Positions 17,143-32,638 of a stretch of DNA of 64,000 bases are shown here, in pieces (within the stretch, counting starts at the first letter, position 1; every line of letters begins with the position of its first letter). Position numbers and translations under genes: made by a program. This stretch comes from Methylobacterium mesophilicum SR1.6/6 (GTDB taxonomy: Bacteria; Pseudomonadota; Alphaproteobacteria; Rhizobiales; Beijerinckiaceae), in assembly GCF_000364445.2 (NCBI RefSeq), contig NZ_CP043538.1, forward strand, positions 5,599,447-5,663,446, read 5' to 3'. Below the pieces are notes generated by a model. It did not search any database. It worked only from the letters and a program-made list of their open reading frames with translations, and was not told the origin of the DNA.

Positions 17143-17189
17143 TGCCGAGCATATCAGCCGTAGCCCTTGGCACATCGGCCGAGCCTGCC

Positions 17190-17328
17190 GTCGTTCCGGG
17201 GCGCCGCAGGCGAGCCCGGACCGGAAGGGGCACGCCGGAGGCGGGCAACCCAGAGCCGCGACGGTGCACGCTCTGCGGCTCCGGTGGTTCTGGATCCCGG
17301 GCTCCGCTGCGCGGCCCCGGGATGACGG
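17190..17328. repeat. dispersed palindromic repeat, family B copy 1
   Basis: Outer arms GGCGCCGCAGGCGAGCCCGG and CCCGGGCTCCGCTGCG pair imperfectly. The interior contains CGCCGGAGGCGGGCAACCCA. The copy at 43784-43923 has the same outer arms and the same interior with a few changes. Confidence 0.75.
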
Positions 17329-17451
17329 GTTGAAGCGGTCACGGCGCTGCACCGCAGGCGGAAAAAATCTCATCCGATCGTGTAGGTCGAGGGAGGAGGA
17401 CGGCCGGGTCTGCTATGCCGGCCGTCCGAGCCCTCGCCGATCGCGCTGCCC

Positions 17452-18390: not shown

Positions 18391-18399
18391 GGCCGAGAC

Positions 18400-19959
18400 T
18401 CACAGGCAAGGATCCTCCGCGGCCTCCAGGCGGCCGCTCGCGATGGCGGCGCGAAACAGGGCGAAATCCGCCGCGTTCCGCTCGGCATAGGCGGCCGCCC
18501 AGTCGGCGATGGCGGCCGAGAGGTCGTGGTGCTTGCCGCTGCCGCAATAGCCGGCGATCGCCGCCGCATCGCCCGTTCGTGCATGGGCGCGGGCGAGCAG
18601 GGCCCCGTAGGCGTACGCGAAGGTCAGGAGCGAGGCGCCCGCCATCCGGGCCAGGGGGATCGCGCCCTTCAGGTTCTTCATCTGCCGCACGTAGTACGGC
18701 CGGCCCGCGATGCTGGTCCAGCCGAGCAGCGGATCGCCCACCGCCTGGAGCAGCCGCTGGCCGTAGATCACGCGCTCGCCCTCATGGCCGGCGAAGGGGG
18801 CGGGCACGCCCGGCAGGTAGGGCGCGTGTGCCGGGCGGACCGCCTCCTTGACCTGGAGGAAGAGCGCGTCCGCGTCGGAGTTGCCGAACAGCAGGGCGAG
18901 ATAGGCCCGGGTCCCGACGCTGCCGATCCCGACGACCCGGTGGGCCACGTCGACCACGTGGTAGCGGTCGAGCATGAAGCGCCGCTCCCGCGGCAGGGTC
19001 TCGGCGTAGCGCTCCAGGCCGGTGACGACGCCCTCGCGGGTGGCGTCGTCCACCGGGGTCAGGATCGGCGGATCGGCCTGCAGGCGCCAGCTGCCGTCGG
19101 TGCGCCGCTCGGCCACCTGCCCGAGCAGGCTGCGGTTGTTGCGCCGCCGGGCCTTGTCCACGGCCCGCCGCACCACGGCCCGGGCCTCCGTATCCATCCG
19201 AAGGCCGGCGATGTGCGGCGCGTCGGCCCGGGTGGTCTGGTACCAGACGTCGAGGGAGCCCTGCGGCGCGAGCCGCCGCATCGTGTGCTGGTAGCCGGCG
19301 ACCGTCTCCATGACGGCATCGCGGCGCGCCCGCACCGGCGCGCCCGCATCCGCGGTGGCGACCGCGAGGCCGGCGGCGAGGCGCTTCAGGTCCCATTCCC
19401 AAGGGCCGATCGTCACCTCGTCGAAATCGTTGAGGTCGAGGACGATGTCGCGCTGGGGCGTGCCGAACAGGCCGAAATTGTCGATGTGGGCGTCGCCGTT
19501 CATCACCACGTCGATGCCGCTGCGCGGCCCGCGCGACAGGTCCCAGGCCATGACGTGCGCGGCCCCGCGCAGGAACGCGAAGGGCGAACTCGCCATCCGG
19601 GCGACCCGGAGCGGGATCAGGCGCGCCTGCCGGCCCTCATGCGCCGCCTTGATCAGGGCGACCGGGTCGGGGCGGTCCGGGTCGTCCGCGAGGCCGGCCT
19701 GGGCCGCGTGGGGTACGGCGGCGCGCAGCCGCTTGCCGGCCTGCCGGCGCTTGTCCCAGGCCTCGACGCCGACGCGCAGGTCGATGCGCGGGAATTCGGC
19801 GATCGGTGCGAGCACCGAGTCGGCCGCGGCCGCGCGCGCATCCCCGTCGTCCGCAGCCGTCGTGTCGCTTCCGAGGCGGTCCATCGCTATCCAATCCGTG
19901 AACGCCGGACAGCCGCGACCGGGCGGGCCTCGTCCCGGAGCGGGGACGGACTTCGACAC
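18400..19959 (-). CDS. DUF2252 domain protein
   Basis: Up to 519 residues; the Met at 19884 (MDRLGSD) is an equally good start giving 494. Family motifs are clear: VMNGDAHIDNFGLFG, VLDLNDFDEVTIGPWEWDLK and RRNNRSLL. The motifs resemble the catalytic loop of aminoglycoside-phosphotransferase/kinase folds (D-x-x-x-x-N and a later Asp), so a phosphotransfer role is conceivable, but no function is established for the family. The gene is alone on its strand; its promoter region faces that of the TPP enzyme. Confidence 0.82.
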   Translation of the reverse strand: MSKSVPAPGRGPPGRGCPAFTDWIAMDRLGSDTTAADDGDARAAAADSVLAPIAEFPRIDLRVGVEAWDKRRQAGKRLRAAVPHAAQAGLADDPDRPDPVALIKAAHEGRQARLIPLRVARMASSPFAFLRGAAHVMAWDLSRGPRSGIDVVMNGDAHIDNFGLFGTPQRDIVLDLNDFDEVTIGPWEWDLKRLAAGLAVATADAGAPVRARRDAVMETVAGYQHTMRRLAPQGSLDVWYQTTRADAPHIAGLRMDTEARAVVRRAVDKARRRNNRSLLGQVAERRTDGSWRLQADPPILTPVDDATREGVVTGLERYAETLPRERRFMLDRYHVVDVAHRVVGIGSVGTRAYLALLFGNSDADALFLQVKEAVRPAHAPYLPGVPAPFAGHEGERVIYGQRLLQAVGDPLLGWTSIAGRPYYVRQMKNLKGAIPLARMAGASLLTFAYAYGALLARAHARTGDAAAIAGYCGSGKHHDLSAAIADWAAAYAERNAADFALFRAAIASGRLEAAEDPCL

Positions 19960-20004
19960 GGTAGCATCCGCCCGGCTCTGTGACTGCCCGGCCCGTCACG
20001 GCCC

Positions 20005-20033
20005 TTGACCCTTCTACGGGCGAGCCCTCTAAC
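20005..20033 (+). promoter_or_regulatory. sigma-70-type promoter of the TPP-enzyme operon
   Basis: TTGACC (20005-20010) and TCTAAC (20028-20033) are separated by 17 bases, with start expected near 20040. The first gene begins at 20152, leaving a leader of about 110 bases. Confidence 0.5.
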
Positions 20034-20036
20034 GAA

Positions 20037-20048
20037 CCGAATATTCGG
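20037..20048. promoter_or_regulatory. candidate operator palindrome at the start site
   Basis: CCGAATATTCGG is a perfect 12-base palindrome placed over the predicted transcription start, inside a wider imperfect repeat with AACG and CGTT outside. An AT-rich palindrome in such GC-rich sequence is conspicuous. The position suits a repressor. The regulator is unknown. Confidence 0.45.
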
Positions 20049-20151
20049 GGGGCGTTCCTTCGTCCGGGCCGTTCCGTTCAAGGTTCCGCGAGGTGCGGAG
20101 CATGGACAGGCCGGGCAGCGCGGGCGCGCCGCAGCATCAGCGAGACTTCGC

Positions 20152-21804
20152 ATGCCCAAGGGTTCAGATCTCCTCGTCGCAGCTTTGGAAAACGAAGGCG
20201 TCGACCGCATCTTCGGCATCCCGGGCGAGGAGAACCTCGACGTCGTCGAATCGCTGCGCCATTCCAAGATCGAGCTGGTCCTCACCCGCCACGAGCAGGC
20301 GGCGAGCTTCATGGCCGCCACCCACGGCCGCCTCACCGGCCGGCCGGGCGTCTGCCTCTCGACGCTGGGGCCGGGCGCCCTGAACTTCTCCACCGGCGCC
20401 GCCTACGCGCATCTCGGCGCCATGCCGATGATCATCATCACCGGCCAGAAGGGCATCCTGTCCTCGCGCCAGGCCAAGTTCCAGATCGTCGATGTGATCA
20501 GCTCCATGAAGCCGATCACCAAGATGGCCCGGCAGATCGTCTCCGCCTCCTCAATCCCCACCATCGTGCGCGACGCCTTCCGGGTCGCCACCGAGGAGCG
20601 GCCGGGCCCGGTGTTGCTGGAGCTGCCCGAGGACATCGCCTCCGAGGAGGCCGAGGCCGACCTCGTGCCCTCGCACCCGATCGACATCCCGGTCGCCCAC
20701 CCGACCGCCATCGCGCGCGCCGCCGACATGATCCTGAAGGCCAAGCGCCCGCTGATCATGCTGGGCGCCGCCGCGAGCCGCCCGCGCGCCACCGGCGAGC
20801 TCGGCGGTTTCGTCCAGCGGACCCAGATCCCGTTCTTCACCACCCAGATGGGCAAGGGCACCGTCGCGGGCGGCACCAACCTCTACATGGGCACGGCGGC
20901 GCTGTCCGAGCGCGACTACGTCCACGAGGCGATCGACAGGGCCGACCTGATCATCGCCATCGGCCACGACACCATCGAGAAGCCGCCCTTCTTCATGGGC
21001 CAGGCCGACCAGAAGGTCATCCACATCAGCTACATGCCGGCCAACGTCGAGCAGGTCTACTACCCCGATGCCGAGGTGGTGGGCGACCTCGGCCCGACGC
21101 TGAAGCTGCTCGCCGACAAGCTCGACGGCAAGCTGCCGAACGCGGGCGCGCTGATGCACCTGCGCGAGCACATCCTCAGCCACATCGCCGACCGGGCGGG
21201 CGAGGACCGCTTCCCGGTGACGCCGCAGCGGCTGGTGCGCGACGTGCGCCGGGTGATCCCCGAGGACGGCATCGTCTGCCTCGACAACGGCATGTACAAG
21301 ATCTGGTTCGCCCGGAACTACCGGACCTACGTCGCCAACACGCTGCTCCTCGACAACGCGCTGGCCACGATGGGCGCGGGCCTGCCCTCGGCCATGATGG
21401 CCGCGATGCTCTACCCGAACCGGCGCGTCATGGCGGTCTGCGGCGACGGCGGCTTCATGATGAACAGCCAGGAGCTGGAGACCGCGGTGCGGCTCAAGCT
21501 CAACCTCGTCGTGCTGGTGCTGGACGACTCGGCCTACGGGATGATCCGCTGGAAGCAGGCGGTCGACAAGTTCGCCGACTACGGCATGACCTTCAACAAC
21601 CCGGACTTCGTCCTCTACGCCAAGTCGTACGGGGCGACCGGCCACCGGGTCGAGTCGGTCAACGACCTCGTGCCGACCCTGGACCGGGCCTTCGCGGCGG
21701 GCGGCGTCCACCTCGTGGCGGTGCCGATCGACTACTCGGAGAACACCCGCGTGCTGGTCGATGAGCTGCGCGCCAAGGTGAAGGATTTTGAGCCGGCCGA
21801 GTGA
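20152..21804 (+). CDS. thiamine-diphosphate enzyme, acetolactate-synthase-like
   Basis: A 550-residue ThDP enzyme of the acetolactate synthase/2-oxoacid decarboxylase superfamily. The N-terminal domain contains RHEQAASFMA with the cofactor-activating Glu at 49. The middle domain is FAD/nucleotide-binding-like. The C-terminal domain contains CGDGGFMMN near 428 and, 27 residues on, DDSAYGM, the ThDP-Mg motif, with Asp where Asn is usual. I chose ATG 20152 over the longer frame because homology begins there. There is no regulatory subunit and no branched-chain amino-acid gene nearby, and the next genes are a dehydrogenase and polyester genes. It may therefore decarboxylate a 2-oxoacid rather than make acetolactate. 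Substrate unproven. Confidence 0.85.
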   Translation: MPKGSDLLVAALENEGVDRIFGIPGEENLDVVESLRHSKIELVLTRHEQAASFMAATHGRLTGRPGVCLSTLGPGALNFSTGAAYAHLGAMPMIIITGQKGILSSRQAKFQIVDVISSMKPITKMARQIVSASSIPTIVRDAFRVATEERPGPVLLELPEDIASEEAEADLVPSHPIDIPVAHPTAIARAADMILKAKRPLIMLGAAASRPRATGELGGFVQRTQIPFFTTQMGKGTVAGGTNLYMGTAALSERDYVHEAIDRADLIIAIGHDTIEKPPFFMGQADQKVIHISYMPANVEQVYYPDAEVVGDLGPTLKLLADKLDGKLPNAGALMHLREHILSHIADRAGEDRFPVTPQRLVRDVRRVIPEDGIVCLDNGMYKIWFARNYRTYVANTLLLDNALATMGAGLPSAMMAAMLYPNRRVMAVCGDGGFMMNSQELETAVRLKLNLVVLVLDDSAYGMIRWKQAVDKFADYGMTFNNPDFVLYAKSYGATGHRVESVNDLVPTLDRAFAAGGVHLVAVPIDYSENTRVLVDELRAKVKDFEPAE

Positions 21805-21847
21805 TCTCGGCCCCGCAGACGGATCGGCACGACAACAGGGCAGCGCG

Positions 21848-23023
21848 ATGAACCCGTTCACCTTCCAGACCACGCCGAACGTGCTGTTCGAGGCCGGCGC
21901 CGCGAAGAAGCTGCCCGAGATCGTGGGCAGCTTCGGGGCCAAGCGCGTCCTGCTGGTCACCGACAAGGGCGTGCGCAGCGCCGGGCTGACCCAGGCCGCC
22001 GAGGCGGCATTGAAGGACGCCGGCGTCACCCTCGACGTCTACGAGGACGTGGTCGCCGACCCGCCCTCCACGGTGATCGAGGCGGCGGCCAAGCGCGCCC
22101 GGGAACTCGGGACCGACCTCGTCCTGTCGATCGGCGGCGGCTCGGCGCTCGATACCGCCAAGCTCGTGGCCTATCTCGCGAAGTCCGACGAGCCGCTGGA
22201 CGCGATCTACGGCGTCGGCCTCGCCAAGGGCGACCGCCTGCCGCTGATCCTCGTGCCGACCACGGCCGGCACCGGCTCGGAGGTGACGCCGATCTCGATC
22301 GTCACGACGCCGACCACCGAGAAGAAGGGCGTCGTCGCGCCGAAGCTGCTGCCCGACTGGGCGGTGCTCGACCCGGAGCTGACGCTCGGCCTGCCGTCGC
22401 ACGTCACGGCGGCGACCGGCATCGACGCCATGGTCCACGCCATCGAGGCCTTCACCAGCAAGAACAAGAAGAACCCGATCTCCGACCAGCTCGCCAAGCA
22501 GGCGCTGGCGCTGCTCTCGGCCAACATCCGCACCGCCTGCACGGACGGCACGGACCTCGAGGCGCGCTCCGGCATGCTTCTGGGCTCGATGCTGGCCGGC
22601 ATGGCCTTCGCCAACGCCCCCGTGGCGGCGGTGCACGCCCTGGCTTACCCGGTGGGCGCGATCTTCCACGTGCCGCACGGGCTCTCGAACGCCCTGGTGC
22701 TGATGGGGGTGATGCGCTTCAACCTCTCACACGCGGAGGGGCTGTACGCGGAGCTCGCGCCGATCCTCGACCCCGCCGCCGCGGACCTGCCCCGGCCTGA
22801 GGCCGCCAAGCGCTTCGTGGAGAGCCTCGACGCGATCTGCCGCGACTGCAAGGTGCCGGCCTCGCTGGCCGAGGTCGGCGTCGCGCGGCAGGACCTGGAG
22901 CGCATGGCCTCCGATGCGATGAAGCAGACGCGGCTCCTCGTGAACAATCCGCGCGAGGTCACCTACGACGACGCCTTCGCGATCTACGCCGAGGCCTTGG
23001 GAGAGGCGCGGCCGGCGGCGTGA
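21848..23023 (+). CDS. iron-containing alcohol dehydrogenase
   Basis: A 391-residue group III alcohol dehydrogenase. The nucleotide motif IGGGSALDTAK is near 95-105. Metal-binding His residues lie in GIDAMVHAIEAF and, further on, in HALAYPVGAIFHVPHG. Family members reduce or oxidise short alcohols, including 4-hydroxybutyrate/succinate semialdehyde, 1,3-propanediol and lactaldehyde. It lies 43 bases after the TPP enzyme on the same strand, so the two are probably co-transcribed. A strong hairpin follows at 23044-23082. A longer start at 21788 is possible but lacks family support. Confidence 0.88.
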   Translation: MNPFTFQTTPNVLFEAGAAKKLPEIVGSFGAKRVLLVTDKGVRSAGLTQAAEAALKDAGVTLDVYEDVVADPPSTVIEAAAKRARELGTDLVLSIGGGSALDTAKLVAYLAKSDEPLDAIYGVGLAKGDRLPLILVPTTAGTGSEVTPISIVTTPTTEKKGVVAPKLLPDWAVLDPELTLGLPSHVTAATGIDAMVHAIEAFTSKNKKNPISDQLAKQALALLSANIRTACTDGTDLEARSGMLLGSMLAGMAFANAPVAAVHALAYPVGAIFHVPHGLSNALVLMGVMRFNLSHAEGLYAELAPILDPAAADLPRPEAAKRFVESLDAICRDCKVPASLAEVGVARQDLERMASDAMKQTRLLVNNPREVTYDDAFAIYAEALGEARPAA

Positions 23024-23043
23024 GGGCTCGATGAACCCATAAC

Positions 23044-23082
23044 CTCCAACCCTCCACCTCGGGATGAGGTGGAGGGTTGGAG
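23044..23082 (+). terminator. perfect 17-bp hairpin after the Fe-alcohol dehydrogenase
   Basis: The arms CTCCAACCCTCCACCTC and GAGGTGGAGGGTTGGAG are exact inverse complements around the loop GGGAT. It starts 20 bases past the stop and has no U-tract. It may terminate, attenuate, or protect the upstream transcript from 3' decay. Confidence 0.65.
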
Positions 23083-23176
23083 ACATGCGGTTCGGAGGAC
23101 CACGCCTCGGGTCGCGTGAAAGCAAAGCAGGCTCGGCAGGGTCGCGGACCGGAACCGGTCGGGAGGGGGCGCCAGC

Positions 23177-24001
23177 ATGGACCAGTTCGACGCGTTCCGG
23201 GCGATGAGCGAGTTCTGGACCCGGGCCGGCGCGGGGTTCTTCACCCCGGGCGCCGGGCAGGCCACGCCCGGCTTCGCCTGGCCGACCTTCCCGGGGGGCG
23301 ACCTCGCGGATCTCGCAACGGCGCAGGCCAAGCTGACCGAAGCCTGGACCGCCGCCACCGCCCTCTCGCAGACCCTGACGCGGTCCCTCCAGGGCGGTCC
23401 GGACGCGCCGGACCCGACCGCCGGGGCGGTGCTCGCGCGCATCTTCGATCCGCAGGCCTGGCTCGGCGGCTCGGCCGAGTTCGACGCCGCGCTGACCCGC
23501 ATGGCCGAGGGCCCGCAGCTCGCCGACCTGTGGCAGACCGAGCGGCGCTACGCGGCCCTGTTCACCGCCTGGGCGAGCCTCCGGCGCGCCCAGAGCGAGC
23601 ACCAGGCCGTGATGCTGGAGGCCTGGACCCGGGCGGCCGGGACCTTCGCCAAGGAGGCCAATGCCCGCGCGGAGCGCGGCGAGAGCTTCGCCTCGGCCCG
23701 GGACATGATGACCCGCTGGATCGAGACCGCCAACGCGGTCCTGCTGGAGGTGCAGCGCTCGGAGAAGTTCTTGGCCTCGCAGCGGGCGGTGCTGCGGGCC
23801 TCCGCCGATCTGCGCCTCGCCCAGCAGGATGTCGCGGCCTTCCTGTCCGAGTTCTACGGCCAGCCGACCCGGGCCGAGCTCGACGACGTGCACAAGAGCC
23901 TGACCGAGCTGCGCCGCGAGGTGCGGGCGCTCCGCCGCGAGCGCCGCGCGGTCCGGGCGAAGGCGGACGGCGCGCGCGCCGCGGAGGACGCCCATGGCTG
24001 A
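23177..24001 (+). CDS. phaE: class III polyhydroxyalkanoate synthase subunit PhaE
   Basis: A 274-residue PhaE-like protein. It opens with short Trp/Phe-rich segments (SEFWTRAG, WPTFPGG), is helical throughout with family-like WLGGSAEFDAALTRMAEGPQ and LWQTERRYAALFTAW, and ends in a coiled coil (about 232-262, LDDVHKSLTELRREVRALRRE). PhaE forms the class III synthase with PhaC and has no catalytic residues itself. A GGGAGGGG ribosome site precedes the ATG by eight bases. The end overlaps phaC by eight bases, supporting a paired complex. Confidence 0.88.
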   Translation: MDQFDAFRAMSEFWTRAGAGFFTPGAGQATPGFAWPTFPGGDLADLATAQAKLTEAWTAATALSQTLTRSLQGGPDAPDPTAGAVLARIFDPQAWLGGSAEFDAALTRMAEGPQLADLWQTERRYAALFTAWASLRRAQSEHQAVMLEAWTRAAGTFAKEANARAERGESFASARDMMTRWIETANAVLLEVQRSEKFLASQRAVLRASADLRLAQQDVAAFLSEFYGQPTRAELDDVHKSLTELRREVRALRRERRAVRAKADGARAAEDAHG

Positions 24002-25124
24002 CCAGCAGAATCCCAAGGCGCCGGCCGCCCCGCTCAGCCTGTCCCCGGCCGAGATGCTGGCCGAGGTCGGCACCCTCGGCCAGCGCATCAGCGCCGGCGC
24101 CAAGCTGTTCGCGGAGGTTCGCGACGCCGACGTCGAGATCGCCACGACGCCGAAGGACCTGGTCTGGAGCCAGGACAAGGTCCGGCTCTACCGCTACCGG
24201 CCGCTCGCCGAGAGCAAGGGGCTGCCGCCGGTCCTGATCGTCTACGGCCTGATCGGCCGCTACACGATGGCCGACCTGCAGGAGGACCGCTCGCTGGTCC
24301 GCAATCTCCTGAACCTCGGCCTCGACCTCTACGTGGTCGACTGGGGCAATCCCGGCCGGGCCGACCGCTACGTCACCATCGACGATTACGTGGACGGCTA
24401 CCTCGCCGAGTGCGTCGCCTTCATCCAGGAGGCGGCCGGGCGGGAGACGATCAGCCTGCTCGGCATCTGCGAGGGCGGCGTCTTCACCACCTGCTACGCG
24501 GCGCTCTACCCCGAGACCGTCAACGCGATGGTGCTGACCATCACGCCGATCGACTTCCATGCCGACACCCGGGAGAACCGGGCCGGCCACGGCTTCATCA
24601 ACGTCTGGACGCGCTCGCTCACGCCTGAGGATGTCGACCGGCTGATCGAGGCGCAGGGCACCTTGCCCGGCGCCTTCATGGGCTCGGTGTTCTCGATGAT
24701 GACGCCGATGCGGACCATGACGAAGTACAATCTCGACCTCCTCGACGCCCTCGACGACAAGAAGAAGTTCCTGAACTTCCTCCGCATGGAGAAGTGGATC
24801 GCCGACCGTCCGGACCATCCCGGCGAGGCGGCCAAGCAGTGGCTCAAGGACCTCTACCAGGACAACAAGCTGGTCGAGAGCGCCTTCGAGCTGGGCGGCC
24901 GGAGGGTGGATCTGAAGAAGATCACCTGCCCGGTGCTGAACGTCTTCGCGCAGGACGACCACATCATCCCGCCCGCCACCTCGCAGGCGCTGAAGGACAG
25001 GATCGGCACCACCGACTACACCGAGCTGGGATTGCCCGGCGGCCATGTCGGCGTGTTCGTCGGCGGCAAGGCGCAGAAGCTGCTGGGCTCCGGCATCGCC
25101 GACTGGCTCGGCCAGCGGGGGTAG
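23994..25124 (+). CDS. phaC: class III polyhydroxyalkanoate synthase subunit PhaC
   Basis: A 376-residue class III synthase, far shorter than the roughly 600 residues of class I. The nucleophile Cys159 sits in the lipase-like box GICEGG, the general-base region has Asp321/322 (AQDDHIIPP) and His351 (PGGHVGVF). It polymerises (R)-3-hydroxyacyl-CoA, and class III enzymes are also known to take 4-hydroxybutyryl-CoA. A hydrophobic WGNPGRADRY segment near 117-126 is family-typical. It is translationally coupled to phaE. Most Methylobacterium genomes rely on a class I phaC elsewhere (from memory), so this would be an additional system. Confidence 0.92.
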   Translation: MADQQNPKAPAAPLSLSPAEMLAEVGTLGQRISAGAKLFAEVRDADVEIATTPKDLVWSQDKVRLYRYRPLAESKGLPPVLIVYGLIGRYTMADLQEDRSLVRNLLNLGLDLYVVDWGNPGRADRYVTIDDYVDGYLAECVAFIQEAAGRETISLLGICEGGVFTTCYAALYPETVNAMVLTITPIDFHADTRENRAGHGFINVWTRSLTPEDVDRLIEAQGTLPGAFMGSVFSMMTPMRTMTKYNLDLLDALDDKKKFLNFLRMEKWIADRPDHPGEAAKQWLKDLYQDNKLVESAFELGGRRVDLKKITCPVLNVFAQDDHIIPPATSQALKDRIGTTDYTELGLPGGHVGVFVGGKAQKLLGSGIADWLGQRG

Positions 25125-25180
25125 GATGGTGGCGCGACAGCTCATGCAGGGCGCGACGCATCCTGACCTTCCAAGGACAG

Positions 25181-25303
25181 GGCGCCTTTCCCCTCCCGCC
25201 TGCGGGGAGGGGTCAGGGGTGGGGTGGTGCAGAAGGCACCGCAGCGCTCGATCCTGCACCACCCCCACCTCCATCTTCTCCCCGCAAGGGGGAGGAGAGC
25301 GCC
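25181..25303. repeat. dispersed palindromic repeat, family C copy 1
   Basis: A roughly 120-bp element with outer arms GGCGCCTTTCCCCTCCCGCC and GGGGGAGGAGAGCGCC, and inner arms GGGGTGGTGCAG and CTGCACCACCCC. It lies between phaC and the CoA-transferase. Other copies are at 28978-29093 and 36416-36544, with a half copy at 40458-40524. Confidence 0.75.
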
Positions 25304-25399
25304 CCGCTGCCATCGATATTTGAATGTCATAGGTCGCAGAGCCAGGAGTGCGACGCGCGCAGCCGCTCCGGCCGCATCCCGGCCGCCGAGGACCACCCG

Positions 25400-27412
25400 A
25401 TGGGCAGCCTGAAGAACAAGATCGTCAGCGCCGACGAGGCGGTCGCCATCCTTCAGGACGGCGACATGGTGGCGGTGTCGGGCTTCGTCGGGATCGGCAC
25501 GCCCGACGAGCTGATCCTGGCACTCGCGCGCCGCTTCGAATCCGGCGCCGGCCCGCACGGGCTCGGCCTGATGTTCGCCGCCGCCCCCGGCGACGGCAAG
25601 GAGCGCGGACTCAACCGCCTCGCGATCCCCGGCCTCGTCAAGCGCGTCGTCGGCGGCCACTGGGCGCTCGTGCCGAAGCTCGGCGCGATGGCGGTGGAGG
25701 GCCGGATCGAGGCCTACAACCTGCCGCTCGGCGTGGTCTCGCACCTCTACCGCGAGATCGCCGCCCACACGCCAGGCCACATCACCAAGGTGGGCCTGCG
25801 CACCTTCGTCGACCCGCGGCTGGAGGGCGGCAAGCTCAACGCCGAGACGCGGGACGACTTGGTCAGCGTGGTCGAGATCGGCGGCGAGTCGTGGCTCCAC
25901 TACAAGGCCTTCCCGGTCAACGTCGCGCTGATCCGCGGCACCACGGCCGACCCCGCCGGCAACATCACCATGGAGCGCGAGGCGCTGACGCTGGACAACC
26001 TCGCCGCCGCCATGGCGGCCAGAAATTCCGGCGGCTTCGTCATCGCGCAGGTTGAGCGGCTGGCCGAGGCCGGCTCCCTCAACCCGCGCGAGGTGCAGGT
26101 GCCCGGCGTGCTGGTGGATTGCGTGGTCCTGAGCCAGCCCGAGAACCACCGCCAGACCTACGGCACGCCCTACAATCACGCCTTCACGGGCCGCCAGCGG
26201 GTGCCGCTCGACCGGATCGCCCCGATGGCGCTCGACGCCCGCAAGGTCATCGCCCGGCGCTGCGCCTTCGAGTTGCCCCCCGGCGGCGTGGTCAATCTCG
26301 GCATCGGCATGCCCGAGGGCGTCGCGGCGGTGGCCGCCGAGGAGCGGGTGCTGAAGTATCTGACGCTCACCGCCGAGCCCGGCGTGATCGGCGGCCTGCC
26401 GCAGGGCGGGCTCGATTTCGGCGCCGCCCTGAACCCCGCCGCTGTGCTGCACCAGAACCAGCAGTTCGACTTCTACGACGGCGGAGGCCTGGACCTGGCC
26501 TGCCTGGGCCTCGCCCAGTGCGACGCGGAGGGCAACGTCAACGTCAGCCGCTTCGGCAAGCGGCTCGCGGGCGCGGGCGGCTTCATCAACATCTCGCAGA
26601 ACGCGAAGAGCCTCGTCTTCGCCGGGACCTTCACGGCCGACGGGCTGAAGGTCGCCGTGGAGGACGGCGGCATGCGGATCCTCGCCGAGGGCCGCTCCCG
26701 GAAGTTCATCGCCGCGGTCGAGCAGGTGACCTTCTCGGGGGCCTACGCGGCCGAGCGTGGCCAACCGGTGCTCTACGTGACGGAGCGCTGCGTGTTCCGG
26801 CGGACGCGGGCCGGCATGGAGCTCACCGAGGTCGCTCCCGGCATCGACATCGAGCGCGACATCCTCGGCCACATGGGCTTCACCCCCATCGTGCAGGATC
26901 CGAAGCCGATGGATCCGCGCCTGTTCCGCGACGCCGTGATGGCCCTGGAGCCGTGGCTCCTCGGCCTCTCGCTGTCCGAGCGGATCAGCTACGACCCGGA
27001 GCGCAACATCCTGTTCTCGAACCTCGAGGGCTTCCAGGTGCGCACCATCGACGACGTCGAGCTGGTGCGCCGGGAATTCGAACGGAGCTGCCAGGAGATC
27101 GGCCGCAAGGTCCACCTGATCGCCAATTACGACGGGTTCGAGATCGACCCGACGGTGAGCGACGCGTACTTCTCGGCGATCGCCTACCTCGAAAACCGCT
27201 ATTACGAGACCGCATCCCGGTATACCACGAGCGCGTTCTTGCGATTGAAACTCGGCGCCTCGTTGGCGAGCCGCGATCTGGCTCCCCATGTATTCGAGAC
27301 AAAAGCCGAGGCACAGGCGAGGAATACGGCCCAGGGCGCTGCCCTCAAGCCGCGGACGGCCCTGTCGGTTTCCGACGCGCCGCAGCCGCCGAAGGAACCG
27401 TTGGATGCCTGA
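25400..27412 (+). CDS. CoA-transferase / acyl-CoA hydrolase, propionate-CoA-transferase-like
   Basis: A 670-residue protein joining both halves of a family I CoA-transferase in one chain, plus a C-terminal extension (about 530-670). The first half (about 1-270) opens with VSADEAVAILQDGDMVAVSG; the second begins near 280 with IARRCAFELPPGGVVNLGIGMPEGV. The expected catalytic Glu lies in TLTAEPGVIGGLPQGG. It would move CoA between acetyl-CoA and another carboxylate, such as a hydroxyacid. The start is the ATG at 25400 just after a repeat; the open frame upstream overlaps phaC and is not coding. It overlaps the next gene by eight bases. Confidence 0.85.
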   Translation: MGSLKNKIVSADEAVAILQDGDMVAVSGFVGIGTPDELILALARRFESGAGPHGLGLMFAAAPGDGKERGLNRLAIPGLVKRVVGGHWALVPKLGAMAVEGRIEAYNLPLGVVSHLYREIAAHTPGHITKVGLRTFVDPRLEGGKLNAETRDDLVSVVEIGGESWLHYKAFPVNVALIRGTTADPAGNITMEREALTLDNLAAAMAARNSGGFVIAQVERLAEAGSLNPREVQVPGVLVDCVVLSQPENHRQTYGTPYNHAFTGRQRVPLDRIAPMALDARKVIARRCAFELPPGGVVNLGIGMPEGVAAVAAEERVLKYLTLTAEPGVIGGLPQGGLDFGAALNPAAVLHQNQQFDFYDGGGLDLACLGLAQCDAEGNVNVSRFGKRLAGAGGFINISQNAKSLVFAGTFTADGLKVAVEDGGMRILAEGRSRKFIAAVEQVTFSGAYAAERGQPVLYVTERCVFRRTRAGMELTEVAPGIDIERDILGHMGFTPIVQDPKPMDPRLFRDAVMALEPWLLGLSLSERISYDPERNILFSNLEGFQVRTIDDVELVRREFERSCQEIGRKVHLIANYDGFEIDPTVSDAYFSAIAYLENRYYETASRYTTSAFLRLKLGASLASRDLAPHVFETKAEAQARNTAQGAALKPRTALSVSDAPQPPKEPLDA

Positions 27413-28877
27413 GACCGAAATTCCCGTCCTGAAGGACGCTGCCCTCCTGGTCGATTCCTGCCTGATCGGCGGCGCATGGTCGAAGGCCGGCTCCGGCAGC
27501 ATCGACGTCACCAACCCGGCGACCGGCGCGCTGATCGCCAAGGTACCGAATGCCGGCGCTGAGGAGACCCGCCAGGCGATCAAGGCCGCCCACGCGGCCT
27601 ACCCGGCCTGGCGCGCCAAGACCGCCAACGAGCGCGCCGTCCTGCTGCGCAAGCTCGCCGCGCTCGTCACCGAGCATCAGGAGGATCTCGCGCAGATCCT
27701 GACCGCCGAGCAGGGCAAGTCGCTGACGGAAGCCCGCGGCGAGGTCGGGATGTCGGCGGCCTACGTGCTGTGGTTCGCCGAGGAGGCGCGGCGGGTCTAC
27801 GGCGACGTGGTCCCCTCCCCCTGGGGCGACCGCAAGATCCTCGTCACCAAGGAGCCGGTCGGCGTGGTGGCGGCGATCACGCCGTGGAACTTCCCGTCCT
27901 CGATGATTGCCCGCAAGATCGCCCCGGCTTTGGCCGCCGGCTGCCCGATCGTGATCAAGCCCGCCTCGCAGACGCCGCTCTCGGGCCTCGCCTGGGGCGT
28001 GCTGTGCGAGCGCGCTGGCTTCCCGGCGGGCACGGTCTCGATCCTCACCGGTTCGGCCCGGGCGATCGGCGGCGAGATGACGAGCAACCCGCTGGTCAAG
28101 AAGATCACCTTCACCGGCTCGACCGAGGTCGGCAAGGTGCTGCTGGAGCAGGCCTCCCACACGGTGAAGAAGGTCTCGATGGAGCTGGGCGGCAACGCGC
28201 CCTTCATCGTGTTCGACGACGCCGATCTCGAGAAGGCGGTGGCCGGCGCGATGCTCGCCAAGTACCGCAACTCCGGCCAGACCTGCATCTGCACCAACCG
28301 CTTCCTGGTGCAGGACGGGATCTACGACGCCTTCGCGGAGAAGATGGCGGAAGCCGCCAACCGCCTCAAGGTCGGCAACGGCACCGAGGACGGCGTCGCC
28401 CAGGGGCCGCTGATCGACATGGCGGCCGTCGAGAAGACCGAGGCCCATATCCGCGACGCCGTCGAGAAGGGCGGCCGGGTGGTCGCGGGCGGCCACCGGC
28501 ACGCGCTGGGCGGCCAGTTCTTCGAGCCGACGGTGATCACCGGCGCCACCCCCGCCATGGCGGTGGCCCGGGAGGAGACGTTCGGGCCGCTGGCGCCGCT
28601 GTTCCGCTTCCGCGACGAGGCGGAGGCGATCCGCATGGCCAACGACACCGAGTACGGCCTCGCCTGCTACTTCTACACCCGCGACCTCGGCCGCACCTTC
28701 CGGGTGGCGGAGGCGCTGGAATACGGCATGGTCGGGATCAACGAGGGGATCATCACCACCGAGGTGGCGCCCTTCGGCGGCGTGAAGGAATCCGGCCTCG
28801 GCCGCGAGGGCTCGTACCAGGGCATCGAGGATTACCTGAACACGAAGTACCTGTGCGTGGGCGGGCTGGGGGCGTAG
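27405..28877 (+). CDS. gabD: NAD(P)-dependent succinate-semialdehyde-dehydrogenase-like aldehyde dehydrogenase
   Basis: A 490-residue aldehyde dehydrogenase of the GabD type. It shows ITPWNFPSSMIARKIAPALA, the cofactor motif FTGSTEVGK, the active-site Glu in MELGGNAP and the nucleophile Cys294 in GQTCICTNRF. The GQTCIC pair, two Cys two residues apart, is typical of GabD enzymes, where it can form a regulatory disulfide. GabD oxidises succinate semialdehyde to succinate. Its start lies inside the CoA-transferase stop region (eight-base overlap), so the two are probably co-translated. Confidence 0.85.
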   Translation: MPETEIPVLKDAALLVDSCLIGGAWSKAGSGSIDVTNPATGALIAKVPNAGAEETRQAIKAAHAAYPAWRAKTANERAVLLRKLAALVTEHQEDLAQILTAEQGKSLTEARGEVGMSAAYVLWFAEEARRVYGDVVPSPWGDRKILVTKEPVGVVAAITPWNFPSSMIARKIAPALAAGCPIVIKPASQTPLSGLAWGVLCERAGFPAGTVSILTGSARAIGGEMTSNPLVKKITFTGSTEVGKVLLEQASHTVKKVSMELGGNAPFIVFDDADLEKAVAGAMLAKYRNSGQTCICTNRFLVQDGIYDAFAEKMAEAANRLKVGNGTEDGVAQGPLIDMAAVEKTEAHIRDAVEKGGRVVAGGHRHALGGQFFEPTVITGATPAMAVAREETFGPLAPLFRFRDEAEAIRMANDTEYGLACYFYTRDLGRTFRVAEALEYGMVGINEGIITTEVAPFGGVKESGLGREGSYQGIEDYLNTKYLCVGGLGA

Positions 28878-28977
28878 GGGCGGCGTTCACGATGACCCGC
28901 AGGGGATCTGACGGGTGCTTTCTCTGCAGGCAACCGGGTTCACACATCTCGGCCTGGCACTGATGCCTCGAGAGAAG

Positions 28978-29093
28978 GGCGCTTTTTCCCTCCCCCTAGT
29001 GGGGAGGGGTCAGGGGTGGGGGTGGTGCAGACGGCACCGCACCGCTCGATCCTGCCCCACCTCCAACTCCTCCCCACAAGGGGGAGGAGAGCG
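28978..29093. repeat. dispersed palindromic repeat, family C copy 2
   Basis: Contains CCCTCCCCCTAGTGGGGAGG and the pairing CTCCTCCCCACAAGGGGGAG, with the same interior as the copy at 25181-25303. It lies between gabD and the small secreted protein gene and may act as a two-way terminator for these convergent genes. Confidence 0.75.
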
Positions 29094-29110
29094 GCTGCGG
29101 TGCCTGCAGC

Positions 29111-29401
29111 CTACCGCCCGCTCGGCGCCGCGCCGCTGCCCGTCGCGCCATTACCCGAGCTGCTGCCGGCGGGCGCGCCCGGAATGCTGACGCGCGGGCC
29201 GCCGCTGGTGCCGGGCGCCATGCCGGCGCCGGTGGAGCCGGTGCTCTCCAGGGTGCCGGCCCCCGTCCCGGTGCCGCCGACCGCGCCCGACTTGTTCACG
29301 TTTCCTTGGTTGGCGCCGCCCGTATGCGGCGCCTGGGCCAGCGCCGCGCCGGACGTGGCGAGAACCATGGATGCGGCGAGAGCGAGGATCGTCTTCGACA
29401 T
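29111..29401 (-). CDS. small secreted Gly/Ser/Thr-rich protein
   Basis: A 96-residue protein with a clear signal peptide (about 1-22, ending GAALAQ). The mature part is low complexity, Gly-, Ser-, Thr- and Ala-rich, with no Cys. I do not recognise a family and the function is unknown. Similar short Gly-rich periplasmic proteins are common in Methylobacterium. It is alone on its strand. Confidence 0.65.
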   Translation of the reverse strand: MSKTILALAASMVLATSGAALAQAPHTGGANQGNVNKSGAVGGTGTGAGTLESTGSTGAGMAPGTSGGPRVSIPGAPAGSSSGNGATGSGAAPSGR

Positions 29402-29469
29402 GGGGCCTCCTGAAGCGTCGTGAAATCGTCAGGGGCCAACCCGATCCCGGCGGGATGGTTCGGCTGCCC

Positions 29470-30396
29470 TCAGCGGGCGAGCGCCTCGCGCCACGCCGTC
29501 CAGGGCCAGTGCGGCCCCGCTCCGCCCGCCGCCGGCGCGATCGAGACCGTCGCGGTCCGGCCGCTCACCAGCCGCGGATCCGCCGTGCCGCCGTCGAGGG
29601 TGATCCGCACCGGGATGCGCTGCGCGAGGCGCACCCACGAGAAGGTCGGGTTTACGTTGGCCAGCAGGTTGGTGGCGTCGCTGCGGCCGGTCTCGCCGAT
29701 GCCGCCGGCGATGCTGGCGACGTGGCCGGCGAGCACGCCGTCCTCGCCCATGAGCTGGACGGTCACGGGCGCGCCGACGCGGATCCGCGGCAGCTTGGTT
29801 TCCTCGAAGTAGCCCTCGATCCGGACGGTGTCGCGGTCGATCAGCGCCATGACCCCGCGGCCGGTGGTGACGTAGGCGCCGGGCCGCAGCTCCATGTTGG
29901 TGATCCGGCCGTTGACCGAGGCCCGCACCGCCGAGCGCTCCAGGTTGAGCTTGGCGAGGTCGCGGTCGGCCACGGCCTGCTCGTAGGCCGCCTGCGCGGA
30001 CAGGTCGGCGGCCTTGGCGGCCTCGACCTTCTGCTGCGACACCGCCGCGTCGGAGAGCTTGCTGTAGCGGGCGAAGTCGGCCGCGGTCTGCTCCGCGGTG
30101 GCCTTGCGACCCTCCACCATCGCCTCCGCCTGCCGCAGACCCAGGCGGAACCGGTCCGGATCGATCCGGAACAGGACGTCGCCCCTCCGGACCACCTGGT
30201 TGTCCTCCACCAGCACCTCGGTCACGAGGCCGGAGACGTCGGGGGCCACCGCCACCACGTCGGCGCGCACGCGCCCGTCCCGGGTCCAGGGGGCATCCAT
30301 GTAGTAGTCCCACAGGCCGAGGCCGACGATCAGTCCCGCGGCGACCATGCCGAGGGTGACCAGGAGGCGGCCGAGGGTGGCGAACAGGGCGGTCAT
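29470..30396 (-). CDS. aaeA: HlyD-family periplasmic adaptor, AaeA-like
   Basis: A 308-residue membrane-fusion protein. One N-terminal membrane segment (about 9-29) is followed by the biotinyl-lipoyl half motif VAPDVSGLVTEVLVEDNQVV, a helical hairpin (about 95-160), the second lipoyl half (GRITNMELRPGAYV) and a beta barrel. It would link the inner-membrane FUSC transporter to an outer-membrane channel. ATG 30396 overlaps the DUF1656 stop as ATGA. AaeA of Escherichia coli exports aromatic carboxylic acids; the substrate here is inferred only from this operon type. No outer-membrane channel gene lies next to it. Confidence 0.85.
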   Translation of the reverse strand: MTALFATLGRLLVTLGMVAAGLIVGLGLWDYYMDAPWTRDGRVRADVVAVAPDVSGLVTEVLVEDNQVVRRGDVLFRIDPDRFRLGLRQAEAMVEGRKATAEQTAADFARYSKLSDAAVSQQKVEAAKAADLSAQAAYEQAVADRDLAKLNLERSAVRASVNGRITNMELRPGAYVTTGRGVMALIDRDTVRIEGYFEETKLPRIRVGAPVTVQLMGEDGVLAGHVASIAGGIGETGRSDATNLLANVNPTFSWVRLAQRIPVRITLDGGTADPRLVSGRTATVSIAPAAGGAGPHWPWTAWREALAR

Positions 30397-30602
30397 TGCA
30401 GGGTCCGATGGGCGAGGGTCACGACGCCGCCGAGCAGGACGACGTAGAGGGCGAGGTCGAAGAGCGGCCGGTGCCAGACGAGGCGGTAGAAGCCGGTCGC
30501 CGCGAGCAGACGGCGCAGCGGCAGGCTGAGGGCGAAGGCCAGGGCCATCCACAGGGCGAGGCCCGGCACGAACACGCCGTAGAGGTCGATCTCGCCCATC
30601 AT
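30393..30602 (-). CDS. aaeX: DUF1656 small inner-membrane protein, AaeX-like
   Basis: A 69-residue protein with two membrane segments (about 9-29 and 45-66) and the family opening GEIDLYGVFVPGL. Members are always found between FUSC and HlyD genes in aromatic-acid efflux operons; the role is unknown. The start (30602 or 30599) overlaps the FUSC stop, and its own stop overlaps aaeA. Confidence 0.85.
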   Translation of the reverse strand: MMGEIDLYGVFVPGLALWMALAFALSLPLRRLLAATGFYRLVWHRPLFDLALYVVLLGGVVTLAHRTLQ

Positions 30603-32638
30603 GCCGCCATCTCCCGGCCGTCCGCTGCGGGCGCCGCCCGGTAGGCCGGCGCGTCGGGAAAGAGCCCGCGGCGCAGGCCGGTGAGGCCGATCAGGGCGGA
30701 CCGCCGCTCCGGCGACGCCGCTGCGCCCGCCACGGCGTCGAGCCCGTCGTCCAGGGCCGCCAGGAGCGCGGAGTCCGGCCGGCCGCGCAGCTGGCGCGCC
30801 GCCAGCGCGAGGACCCGGTCGACGGCAATCCGGGGCGCCCCCGTCAGCCGCCGCCGCACCCGGCGCACCTCCACGAGGTTGATGCCCGCCCGGACGTCGG
30901 CCAGCAGGTCGCCCACGGTGGCCGACATGTCGGCGGGCAGCGTGGCCAGCCGCGGCGCGATCAGGCCGACGCGGTCGAGCATCAGGGCCGCGAGTTCGAG
31001 CCCGTGGCCGGCGCCGCGCCCGTCCGCGGCGGCCGCGAGGCTGCGGCGGTTGATCCGCACGAGCCGCCGGGTGCTCCATCCGGCGCCGACCGAGCGGATC
31101 AGCCGCGTCACCAAGGCGGCGACCCACATGCCCACCACCGAGGCGATCACCCCGTTGGCGAAGGGCGCGAACTCGCCGCTGTAGCCGTTCTGGAGGGCCA
31201 GCAGGGTCGCGCCGTTCAGCGCCGCGCCCATGCCCATCGGGGCGGTGCGCGGCTGCGTCATCATCAGGCCGCACAGGATCAGGGCCGGCGCGAGGGCGAG
31301 CGCCAGCATCTCGAAGGAGCTGGCGAGCGGCAGCACGGCGAACAGGTAGACGCCCGCGCCGAGGGCGCCGACGATCGCCGAGTTGGTGAAGCCCAGGATC
31401 TGCGGCGCGGGATCGTCCTGCGCGGCGAACAGGCAGCAGGCGACCGCGCCCATCATCGGCGCCGCGGAGCCGTCCGGCCAGCCGGTGGCGATCCAGATCG
31501 CGCAGCAGGCGAGCAGGCCCACGAACACCCCGAAGGCCGAGAACGCCGCCAGACCGTGGTCCCGGTGGCGGATCGACCGGACCCGGGCCGTGTAGGCGAA
31601 GGCGAGCGGCGCCCGGGGGGCGGTGCCGGCGGCGAGGTGGCCGCGGAGCGCCCGCAGGTCCTGCCGCAGGTCAATGACGTCGCGCAGGCGCGCCGCGAGG
31701 CTCGCGAGCAGGAGCGTGGTCCAGTCCGGAGCCCGGTCGAGGACGGGGTCGAACCCGTCGACCCGGCGGCGCAGCTCCGAGGCGCGATCCGGATCATCGC
31801 CCTCGTCGGCGAGCCAGACGGCGAGGTCGGACAGGACGGCGCGGACCCGTGCCGGCAGCGCGCCGGCCCGCTCCAGGGCGGCGACGCGGTCCGCCACGGC
31901 GGCGATGATCGGCAGGACCATCAGCATGTGCTGCCGGAGCGGCGCGAAGGCCTCGGCGGCGCGCTCGGCACCCGTCGCCTCGTTGCGCAGGGCGAGGCCG
32001 AGGGCGTCGAGGCCGAGCGCGTCCGAGGCGAGGCGCAGGCGCCGTCCCTGGCTCGGCCCGGCGACCTCCGGCGCGCGGGCGGCCGCGAGGGCGCTCTGCA
32101 TCCAGGCTCGCGCTTCCGCCGACCAGTGATTCAGCCGCTCGACGATGAGCGGCGCCGCCGATTGCGGCAGGATCAGCGTGGCGGCGAGGCTGGCGCAGAG
32201 GATGCCCAGCGAGATCTCCTCGGCCCGCGCGACGGCGGTGTCGAAGATCGCCCCGGGGTCGTCCACGGCCGGGAAGCCGATCAGGGCCGCCGTGTACCCG
32301 GCGAGCATCGGCAGGTAGCTCGCGGGGGTGCGGTCGAGCAGCGAGACGTAGAGGCAGAGCGCGACCCAGAGCGCGACCGCGAGGCTCAGCAGGACCGGCG
32401 CGTTCACGAGGTTCGGCAGCAGCACGACGCTCATGGCGGCGCCCAGAACGGTGCCGCCCACCCGGTAGAGGGCCTTCGACCGGGTGGCGCCGGAGAGGAC
32501 CTGGCTGGTGATGTAGACCGTGCCCAGCGCCCAGTAGGGTCGCGGCAGGTCGATCCAGAGCGCGAGGAACAGGGCGAGCATCGCCGCCGCGTAGGTCTTC
32601 AGCGCGAAGGCCCAATCGCGCCATCCGGGAAGAGTCAC
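30599..32638 (-). CDS. aaeB: FUSC family inner-membrane efflux transporter, AaeB-like
   Basis: A 679-residue protein with two sets of membrane segments, about 10-170 and 345-490, each followed by a cytoplasmic helical region, the FUSC/AaeB plan. The motif RPYWALGTVYITSQ near the N-terminus is family-typical. It is the inner-membrane part of an aromatic-acid or fusaric-acid-type efflux system. I choose the GTG at 32638, which overlaps the marR stop as GTGA; the longer open frame through the marR gene is not real. Confidence 0.87.
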   Translation of the reverse strand: MTLPGWRDWAFALKTYAAAMLALFLALWIDLPRPYWALGTVYITSQVLSGATRSKALYRVGGTVLGAAMSVVLLPNLVNAPVLLSLAVALWVALCLYVSLLDRTPASYLPMLAGYTAALIGFPAVDDPGAIFDTAVARAEEISLGILCASLAATLILPQSAAPLIVERLNHWSAEARAWMQSALAAARAPEVAGPSQGRRLRLASDALGLDALGLALRNEATGAERAAEAFAPLRQHMLMVLPIIAAVADRVAALERAGALPARVRAVLSDLAVWLADEGDDPDRASELRRRVDGFDPVLDRAPDWTTLLLASLAARLRDVIDLRQDLRALRGHLAAGTAPRAPLAFAYTARVRSIRHRDHGLAAFSAFGVFVGLLACCAIWIATGWPDGSAAPMMGAVACCLFAAQDDPAPQILGFTNSAIVGALGAGVYLFAVLPLASSFEMLALALAPALILCGLMMTQPRTAPMGMGAALNGATLLALQNGYSGEFAPFANGVIASVVGMWVAALVTRLIRSVGAGWSTRRLVRINRRSLAAAADGRGAGHGLELAALMLDRVGLIAPRLATLPADMSATVGDLLADVRAGINLVEVRRVRRRLTGAPRIAVDRVLALAARQLRGRPDSALLAALDDGLDAVAGAAASPERRSALIGLTGLRRGLFPDAPAYRAAPAADGREMAA

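Follow-up and report, generated by a model that had tools for sequence, protein, structure and literature searches.

A conserved Methylobacterium gene cluster predicted to lead from 2-oxoglutarate to a 4-hydroxybutyrate polyester

The window analyzed here is a stretch of 64,000 nucleotides from the 6.56-Mb single-contig genome of Methylobacterium mesophilicum SR1.6/6 (contig NZ_CP043538.1, positions 5,599,447 to 5,663,446), and the subject is a cluster of six open reading frames, every one intact, on its + strand at positions 20152-28877. As the original prediction had it, genes for a thiamine diphosphate (ThDP) enzyme, an iron-containing alcohol dehydrogenase (Fe-ADH), the PhaE and PhaC subunits of a class III polyhydroxyalkanoate (PHA) synthase, a CoA-transferase and a GabD-type succinate-semialdehyde dehydrogenase (SSADH) lie together on one strand. 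The cluster is considered below as a candidate pathway from 2-oxoglutarate through succinate semialdehyde (SSA) to a polyester of 4-hydroxybutyrate (4HB). Its features are as follows.

20152..21804, + strand: ThDP enzyme, putative 2-oxoglutarate decarboxylase, labeled acetolactate synthase large subunit (PRK08322); 550 aa; Glu48, Lys383, Asp432, Lys468
21848..23023, + strand: Fe-ADH, putative succinate-semialdehyde reductase, GhbD-like; 391 aa; predicted metal ligands Asp193, His197, His263, His277
23177..24001, + strand: PhaE, class III PHA synthase subunit, assigned from PF09712 and its conserved position beside PhaC; 274 aa
23994..25124, + strand: PhaC, class III PHA synthase catalytic subunit (TIGR01836); 376 aa; Cys159, Asp322, His351
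25125..25399, no strand: gap of 275 bp with an imperfect inverted repeat, arms 25178-25224 and 25263-25309
25400..27412, + strand: CoA-transferase of the propionate-CoA-transferase/YdiF type with a C-terminal extension, putatively activating 4HB; 670 aa; Glu326
27405..28877, + strand: SSADH of the GabD type (TIGR01780); 490 aa; Cys294, Glu260

The spacings in gene order are 43 bp, 153 bp, an 8-bp overlap of PhaE and PhaC, 275 bp, and an 8-bp overlap of CoA-transferase and SSADH. The catalytic residues expected are found in the cluster proteins, Glu and Asp of the ThDP enzyme being assigned after PMC10418658. The inverted repeat between phaC and the CoA-transferase gene (25178-25309) has arms of 47 nt that are 70% complementary, and this gap is far shorter at some other Methylobacterium loci (L042, L046; L numbers denote the loci compared).

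The original prediction called the ThDP step the weakest of the pathway because the enzyme is of a type annotated as acetolactate synthase; the step is now better supported by protein family, active-site lysines, tree placement and the replacement of the enzyme by another type in the same slot. The enzyme scores 836 bits against the NCBIfam family PRK08322 (cut-off 509) and falls below the cut-offs for AlsS (TIGR02418, 410 versus 551) and acetohydroxyacid synthase (AHAS; TIGR00118, 355 versus 538). PRK08322 is also the top family for a cyanobacterial KGD-type enzyme (L126, 884 bits, the one cyanobacterial case that was scored) and for a Ruegeria enzyme of what is here called type B (788 bits), so the label "acetolactate synthase large subunit" cannot separate functions. 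The cyanobacterial genes (L125-L127), each with an SSADH-like gene nearby, are taken as orthologs of the 2-oxoglutarate decarboxylase KGD from best match, neighbor and active site, the assayed KGD sequences themselves lying outside the comparison. In a docked model of the Microcystis enzyme (MaKGD), the contacts of 2-oxoglutarate are described as including Lys386 and Lys471, and replacement of Glu50 or Asp435 by alanine is reported to inactivate it (PMC10418658). At the aligned sites the window enzyme has Lys383, Lys468, Glu48 and Asp432, the last being the Asp of the GDG motif. The lysine pair is retained in 22 of 22 window-type rows and in all three cyanobacterial rows of an alignment from which L072 was excluded for a stop in its stretch; type B rows have K/H at the two sites in eight cases out of ten and K/K in two, AlsS has H/Q (two rows), and AHAS has Q at the first site and, by alignment, W or Q at the second (four rows). 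The closest solved structure by sequence (PDB 13bb_A, 450 bits) is deposited as an acetolactate synthase; it may represent a third subfamily, because it has Met at the first of the substrate-lysine sites of KGD and the window enzyme.

In a tree of 46 hand-chosen ThDP enzymes, made by a quick search without bootstrap and containing long branches, the window type, type B and cyanobacterial KGD form one group (SH-aLRT 91) with AlsS and AHAS outside. The same group includes Streptomyces and Halorarius enzymes labeled acetolactate synthase, both K/K; its internal order is unsettled, and type B is not a single clade, L078 and L102 standing with Halorarius. Type B enzymes occupy the ThDP slot in Rhodobacteraceae, Leucothrix, Variovorax and others, and 12 of them, when compared, share 44-60% identity with cyanobacterial KGD. 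The protein search, which listed the best 120 of 8000 scored proteins, was used for names only. Production of acetolactate from pyruvate, which the NCBIfam and depositors' name would suggest, is extremely unlikely: besides the sub-cut-off AlsS and AHAS scores and the sharing of PRK08322 with a cyanobacterial KGD-type enzyme, the active-site residues differ, a separate true AHAS is encoded elsewhere in the genome (L139, 1054 versus 974 bits), and the window has no match to a piece of acetolactate decarboxylase from beside one of two alsS genes. Acetolactate synthase function was rejected on those scores, the tree placement and the shared family. The resemblance of the enzyme to 2-oxoglutarate decarboxylase, and not to acetolactate synthase, is well supported by these comparisons, and the window enzyme is predicted to decarboxylate 2-oxoglutarate to SSA.

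Over 390 residues the Fe-ADH shares 66% identity with the homolog in the same operon place at the pha locus of Sinorhizobium meliloti HM006 (GhbD); its identity with the sole paralog found in its own genome is 40%. It clears no NCBIfam cut-off, its score against the Cupriavidus-type 4-hydroxybutyrate dehydrogenase family NF058672 being 257 versus 500. Activity of S. meliloti GhbD on SSA is reported in a preprint of October 2025 (PMC12636752). The direction of the reaction is unreadable from sequence because the protein also resembles the Fe-ADH of the Agrobacterium blc/att operon; reduction of SSA is the predicted direction.

PhaE exceeds the cut-off of Pfam PF09712 (72 versus 25.7) but not that of NCBIfam TIGR01834 (75 versus 155), and PhaC exceeds that of the class III model TIGR01836 (382 versus 365) and is 96% identical over 360 residues to PhaC of Methylobacterium longum. 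Cys159, Asp322 and His351 of PhaC presumably form the C-D-H triad. A second PhaC, of class I type, is encoded elsewhere in the genome (a piece of 416 aa scores 620 versus a class I cut-off of 623). The CoA-transferase clears no NCBIfam cut-off, matches YdiF (PDB 2ahu) with 432 bits across residues 8-515, and aligns its Glu326 with the YdiF glutamate that we take to be catalytic; it and the HM006 CoA-transferase share 60% identity over 638 residues. Given its propionate-CoA-transferase/YdiF type, activity of the protein on hydroxyacids remains a prediction, and 4HB would be the acid that it activates. The SSADH exceeds the cut-off of TIGR01780 (687 versus 646), matches the SSADH chain 3jz4 with 671 bits, and shares 60% identity with its counterpart in the Agrobacterium blc/att operon.

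Gene neighborhoods were compared at the 80 class III PhaC loci that ranked highest by PhaC similarity among 524 found, 13 of them from Methylobacterium; a gene was counted as present at tblastn identity and coverage thresholds of our own setting (45% for phaB), and genes past contig ends are missed. Genes for the ThDP enzyme, reductase and CoA-transferase occur together at 33 of the 80 loci, and 31 of these full loci keep the order ThDP-reductase-PhaE-PhaC-CoA-transferase on one strand. Twelve further loci have one or two of the three genes, 14 have phaA/phaB-like genes, and 21 have neither kind; neither this 33/14/21 split nor the labels of the tree can be read as independent samples, since the loci were picked for their similar PhaC and include redundancy. 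The order Fe-ADH-PhaE-PhaC-CoA-transferase is conserved across alpha- and gammaproteobacteria. The reductase slot is filled by a zinc-type alcohol dehydrogenase at five of the 33 full loci, and the CoA-transferase slot by the acetyl-CoA hydrolase/transferase family at two actinobacterial loci (L054, L061), one of them among the 33. Because different families fill the same slot, it appears to be the order of reactions that is kept. In a PhaC tree of 84 rows, from 85 loci and the window with L100 and L122 dropped (matches of fewer than 280 residues), a locus was labeled 4HB if it has at least two of the ThDP, reductase and CoA-transferase genes. In this quick search without bootstrap, the window PhaC is placed among the 4HB-type rows; the 4HB label versus the polyhydroxybutyrate (PHB) label needs two changes, the exception (L092) being a long branch, and the 4HB label versus all other rows needs nine (shuffled mean 28.1).

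At the thresholds set, phaA/phaB accompany ThDP, reductase or CoA-transferase genes at none of 45 loci, three of which carry a short-chain dehydrogenase/reductase match of 30-31%, under the 45% asked of phaB; an ordinary phaA/phaB-linked PHB locus was rejected on this lack of overlap. The same count bears on a reading in which the ThDP enzyme and GabD are a mere 2-oxoglutarate-to-succinate bypass beside an ordinary short-chain synthase that makes a 3-hydroxybutyrate polymer, the Fe-ADH and CoA-transferase serving other alcohols and acids. The ThDP-gabD pair does occur without adjoining pha genes, and class III synthases are described as short-chain PHA synthases. The absence of phaA/phaB from the 45 loci, the gene order kept in two proteobacterial classes, and the presence in the genome of both a class I-type PhaC and 2-oxoglutarate dehydrogenase (OGDH) count against such a bypass, which is very unlikely. 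A bypass needed to complete the tricarboxylic acid (TCA) cycle was rejected, as the genome encodes OGDH E1.

Some class III PhaC loci (L051, L058, L083, L088, L104) have neither 4HB-type genes nor phaA/phaB at the thresholds set; by eye, several of them lie near genes for an acyl-CoA-ligase-like protein, a major facilitator superfamily (MFS) transporter and a 640-aa isomerase/dioxygenase-like protein. At three gammaproteobacterial loci (L099, L105, L111) Fe-ADH and SSADH matches lie on the opposite strand and no ThDP gene was found; L105 and L111 also carry a patatin/DUF3336-type protein of the cluster typed in L102.

The six-gene order, whose conservation the original prediction had proposed to check, is identical in 12 of the 13 Methylobacterium loci, so the gene set is not a chance assembly. 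The co-occurrence in relatives on which that prediction also depended is seen at the 33 full loci and in Methylobacterium, where, among 111 genomes, PhaC has a match at E <= 1e-80 in 42 and one of at least 70% identity in 40. All 40 have the ThDP gene, which lies 2,079-2,537 bp upstream of PhaC and on its strand in 39 and on a separate contig in the remaining one. In 18 more Methylobacterium genomes the ThDP gene is present without this PhaC, five with an aldehyde dehydrogenase gene, an MFS transporter gene or both adjoining, and in M. nodulans it occurs with gabD and without pha genes in the stretch. Of 98 Bradyrhizobium genomes, 81 have the ThDP gene and five have PhaC; in four of those five the ThDP gene lies about 3.3-3.4 kb upstream of PhaC, and 16 other Bradyrhizobium copies (L179-L194) stand apart from pha genes. 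The neighborhoods of orphan ThDP genes in Bradyrhizobium and Methylobacterium gave no hint of a substrate. In S. meliloti HM006 (L121) and on pRL10 of Rhizobium johnstonii (L124) a ThDP gene upstream of the Fe-ADH gene is split over two frames; pRL10 has two broken ThDP copies, one followed by a broken Fe-ADH gene and then a CoA-transferase gene. The two loci dropped from the PhaC tree, L100 and L122, concern Methylobacterium strain WSM2598, where the PhaC match is in two pieces, and plasmid pM44601 of strain 4-46, where phaE has no annotated phaC after it and transposase genes are close by.

Versions of the cluster in relatives extend toward citrate. On a Bosea vaviloviae plasmid the deposited annotation gives, on one strand, acnA, an isocitrate/isopropylmalate dehydrogenase, an "acetolactate synthase", Fe-ADH, phaE, phaC and a CoA-transferase as the first seven genes, and the run continues with phasin, an alpha/beta hydrolase, acs, ppa, adenylate kinase (adk) and a citrate:proton symporter. 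This operon could convert citrate through isocitrate, 2-oxoglutarate, SSA, 4HB and 4HB-CoA to polymer while recycling acetate, pyrophosphate and AMP. A gene of AcnA or isocitrate dehydrogenase (IDH) type occurs at eight of the 80 PhaC loci, all eight of which have the ThDP gene: five are Bradyrhizobium, all with the IDH-type gene and acs and four also with AcnA, at which four loci the aconitase and IDH-type genes lie upstream; one is Variovorax, and two are metagenome-assembled genomes of Rhodospirillales, one with AcnA on the other strand. The Bradyrhizobium AcnA exceeds its cut-off (1329 versus 945). Some loci carry a citrate-type transporter: in Mycobacterium sp. 141 it is a CitMHS protein that exceeds its cut-off, in Bradyrhizobium and M. 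symbioticum a 2HCT protein. In four Methylobacterium genomes that have the ThDP gene without this PhaC the adjoining gene encodes an MFS transporter like PRK10406 (Bradyrhizobium homolog, 659 versus 550), which we take to be the 2-oxoglutarate permease KgtP.

These helper genes also bear on a salvage function, in which carbon from outside gamma-hydroxybutyrate, its lactone or gamma-aminobutyrate (GABA) would be used or stored: the Fe-ADH would oxidize 4HB, GabD would finish the conversion to succinate, and the CoA-transferase and PhaEC would store the excess, giving the same monomer with the ThDP enzyme secondary. The Fe-ADH and SSADH are 55% and 60% identical to their Agrobacterium blc/att counterparts, and GABA has been proposed as the SSA source in S. 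meliloti (PMC12636752). Salvage is nevertheless unlikely: 31 of the 33 full loci have the ThDP gene upstream of the reductase gene on one strand, and 39 of 40 Methylobacterium genomes have it upstream of PhaC; synthesis is what the aconitase, IDH-type, acs, ppa and adk genes in the Bosea and Bradyrhizobium versions suit; and an attM-type lactonase query had no match in the 64-kb window. The probability is next to negligible that the same logic serves another 2-oxoacid and another hydroxyacid monomer, such as a C3 or C5 omega-hydroxyacid. Substrate identity is itself a prediction, and the ThDP pocket differs from that of KGD at several positions; the SSADH partner, however, exceeds a curated cut-off, aconitase and IDH-type genes lie upstream in relatives, and the Fe-ADH homolog has been assayed on SSA.

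The cluster thus very probably makes up a complete route of its own, leading from the TCA cycle to a 4HB polyester. The ThDP enzyme would decarboxylate 2-oxoglutarate to SSA; the Fe-ADH would reduce SSA to 4HB with NAD(P)H; the CoA-transferase would shift CoA from an acyl-CoA, probably acetyl-CoA, onto 4HB; and PhaEC would polymerize 4HB-CoA, alone or with 3-hydroxybutyryl-CoA. GabD would oxidize surplus SSA to succinate; most likely it keeps SSA in check and recovers the carbon as succinate, at once a safety valve and a connection to the cycle. This sequence of reactions, including the GabD drain, was put forward in the original prediction and is supported by gene content, gene order and family placement, which together with conservation are established at the level of sequence. 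Homologs lend support to the second step in S. meliloti, to the first in cyanobacterial enzymes of the same broad clade, and to the use of 4HB by class III PhaEC in an engineered cyanobacterium; the third and fourth steps and the make-up of the polymer in this strain are predicted.

Several observations weigh against this route. Identity between the window-type ThDP clade and cyanobacterial KGD is only 39-42%, the clade has a long stem, and other pocket positions differ from KGD, with N/M/Y in place of V/A/H. A bypass is unneeded for the TCA cycle because the genome has OGDH. The ThDP gene often occurs apart from the partners of the cluster: beside 13 of the 18 Methylobacterium copies in genomes that lack this PhaC, no tested gene lies within about 3 kb on either side (two are cut by contig ends), a GabD-like match within about 3 kb is absent at all 16 non-cluster Bradyrhizobium copies (16 of the 81 genomes), and one of the five PhaC-bearing Bradyrhizobium genomes has no ThDP match at threshold. 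The Bradyrhizobium IDH-type protein is nearest PRK08997 (430 versus 510) and lies under every curated IDH cut-off; queries for aconitase, IDH-type, acs, ppa, adk and citrate-transporter genes had no match in the 64-kb window, and acs was not found in the stretches around the 12 six-gene Methylobacterium loci. The Fe-ADH further shares 55% identity with its counterpart in the Agrobacterium blc/att operon, which is described as running in the oxidizing direction (PMC12636752). In S. meliloti, phaC mutants are said to have retained the plant phenotype, and the available text of the report gives no monomers of the polymer (PMC12636752).

More broadly, we put forward, at an evenly balanced probability, a widespread separate branch of PHA metabolism in which class III synthases would be fed by a dedicated TCA shunt from citrate or 2-oxoglutarate through SSA to 4HB, giving natural granules that are rich in 4HB or consist of poly-4-hydroxybutyrate (P4HB). 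Its hosts would be Methylobacterium, some Bradyrhizobium, Bosea, roseobacters and some gammaproteobacteria, with differing families and subfamilies filling the ThDP, reductase and CoA-transferase slots, and the plasmid versions of Sinorhizobium and Rhizobium would have lost the decarboxylase, perhaps once plants supplied the precursor. From citrate the shunt would be redox-neutral because the NAD(P)H from isocitrate dehydrogenase is spent at the reductase.

P4HB is described as the PHA approved by the Food and Drug Administration for medical use, and most PHA producers as lacking a supply route for the 4HB monomer (PMC8659255); wild types are said to need related precursors to make 4HB copolymers (PMC7147479). 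Hydrogenophaga pseudoflava and Bacillus cereus are named as natural producers from unrelated carbon, and elucidation of the H. pseudoflava pathway is called for (PMC8659255). A natural P4HB route from ordinary metabolism is only now emerging, for a polymer of medical use. If the proposed pathway is correct, the clusters would offer enzyme sets for precursor-free production of the polymer starting at 2-oxoglutarate or citrate, many "acetolactate synthase" genes would encode 2-oxoglutarate decarboxylases, a candidate gene would be at hand for the 2-oxoglutarate decarboxylase activity of Bradyrhizobium japonicum (Green 2000, cited in PMC10418658), and there would be an explanation for the broken genes that lie upstream of the polymer locus in S. 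meliloti.

The surroundings of the cluster add the following features.

18400-19959, opposite (-) strand: DUF2252 gene upstream of the cluster
29470-30552, opposite (-) strand: HlyD-type gene downstream of the cluster

A dehydrogenase dependent on pyrroloquinoline quinone, of the methanol/ethanol family, is encoded farther away (34356-36257, - strand; TIGR03075, 801 versus 480), as expected in a methylotroph. Rfam gave no match at the gathering score in 16000-34000; in 19900-29100 no sigma-70-like promoter was seen, and the three terminator-like sites are not above shuffles (mean 2.8).

The original prediction described this gene combination beside a class III synthase as not familiar; part of it proves to be in print for S. 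meliloti, without the ThDP step (PMC12636752). The open-licence PMC literature, a scope outside which subscription papers and most preprints lie, yielded no natural operon in which a 2-oxoglutarate decarboxylase is joined to a PHA synthase and no account of the present cluster in Methylobacterium. The pha-1/pha-2 locus of S. meliloti HM006 is ghbD-phaE-phaC2-ghbT-acs, and P4HB is proposed there as the product, with GABA as the likely source of SSA (PMC12636752). The shared genes stand in identical order (identities: Fe-ADH 66%, PhaE 32%, PhaC 59%, CoA-transferase 60%), but the HM006 ThDP gene is in two frames, which we take to be the two pseudogenes mentioned by the authors, whereas that of the window is intact; HM006 has acs in the operon and an attKLM set nearby, whereas the run in the window ends in gabD. 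The Agrobacterium blcABC/attKLM operon has a similar Fe-ADH (55%) and SSADH (60%), but it is catabolic and includes a lactonase (PMC12636752), and no ThDP, CoA-transferase or PHA synthase genes are annotated in the stretch. Elsewhere, one class III synthase with phaE is noted in Caballeronia grimmiae (PMC8231600), and a PhaE-PhaC2 pair active in bacteroids of Rhizobium leguminosarum bv. viciae 3841 (Rlv 3841) is named a PHB synthase (PMC5852556).

The OgdA-SsaD bypass of Synechococcus PCC 7002 (SYNPCC7002_A2770-A2771; PMC5160925) likewise has a ThDP decarboxylase adjoining an SSADH, PRK08322 as the top family of a cyanobacterial KGD-type enzyme, and both substrate lysines. The window enzyme differs in being 39-42% identical to the cyanobacterial KGD types in a clade of its own, in its coupling to a reductase, a CoA-transferase and a PHA synthase, and in the presence of OGDH in the genome. 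Engineered Synechococcus PCC 7002 made poly(3-hydroxybutyrate-co-4-hydroxybutyrate) (Zhang, Liu and Bryant 2015, via PMC7147479 and PMC8659255) with the same kinds of enzyme, a 2-oxoglutarate decarboxylase, a 4HB dehydrogenase, a CoA-transferase and class III PhaEC, but that pathway is man-made from the genes of three organisms, the dehydrogenase and transferase coming from Porphyromonas gingivalis. The sucD-4hbD-orfZ genes of Clostridium kluyveri also lead from SSA through 4HB to 4HB-CoA (PMC7147479, PMC8659255), but there SSA is made from succinyl-CoA by SucD, and the native role is given as succinate degradation. The proposal of a P4HB cluster in S. meliloti, the cyanobacterial KGD-SSADH bypass and the engineered cyanobacterial route are therefore already in print; what the present comparison would add is a built-in 2-oxoglutarate decarboxylase, the spread of the pathway with non-homologous replacements, and a version that may run from citrate to polymer.

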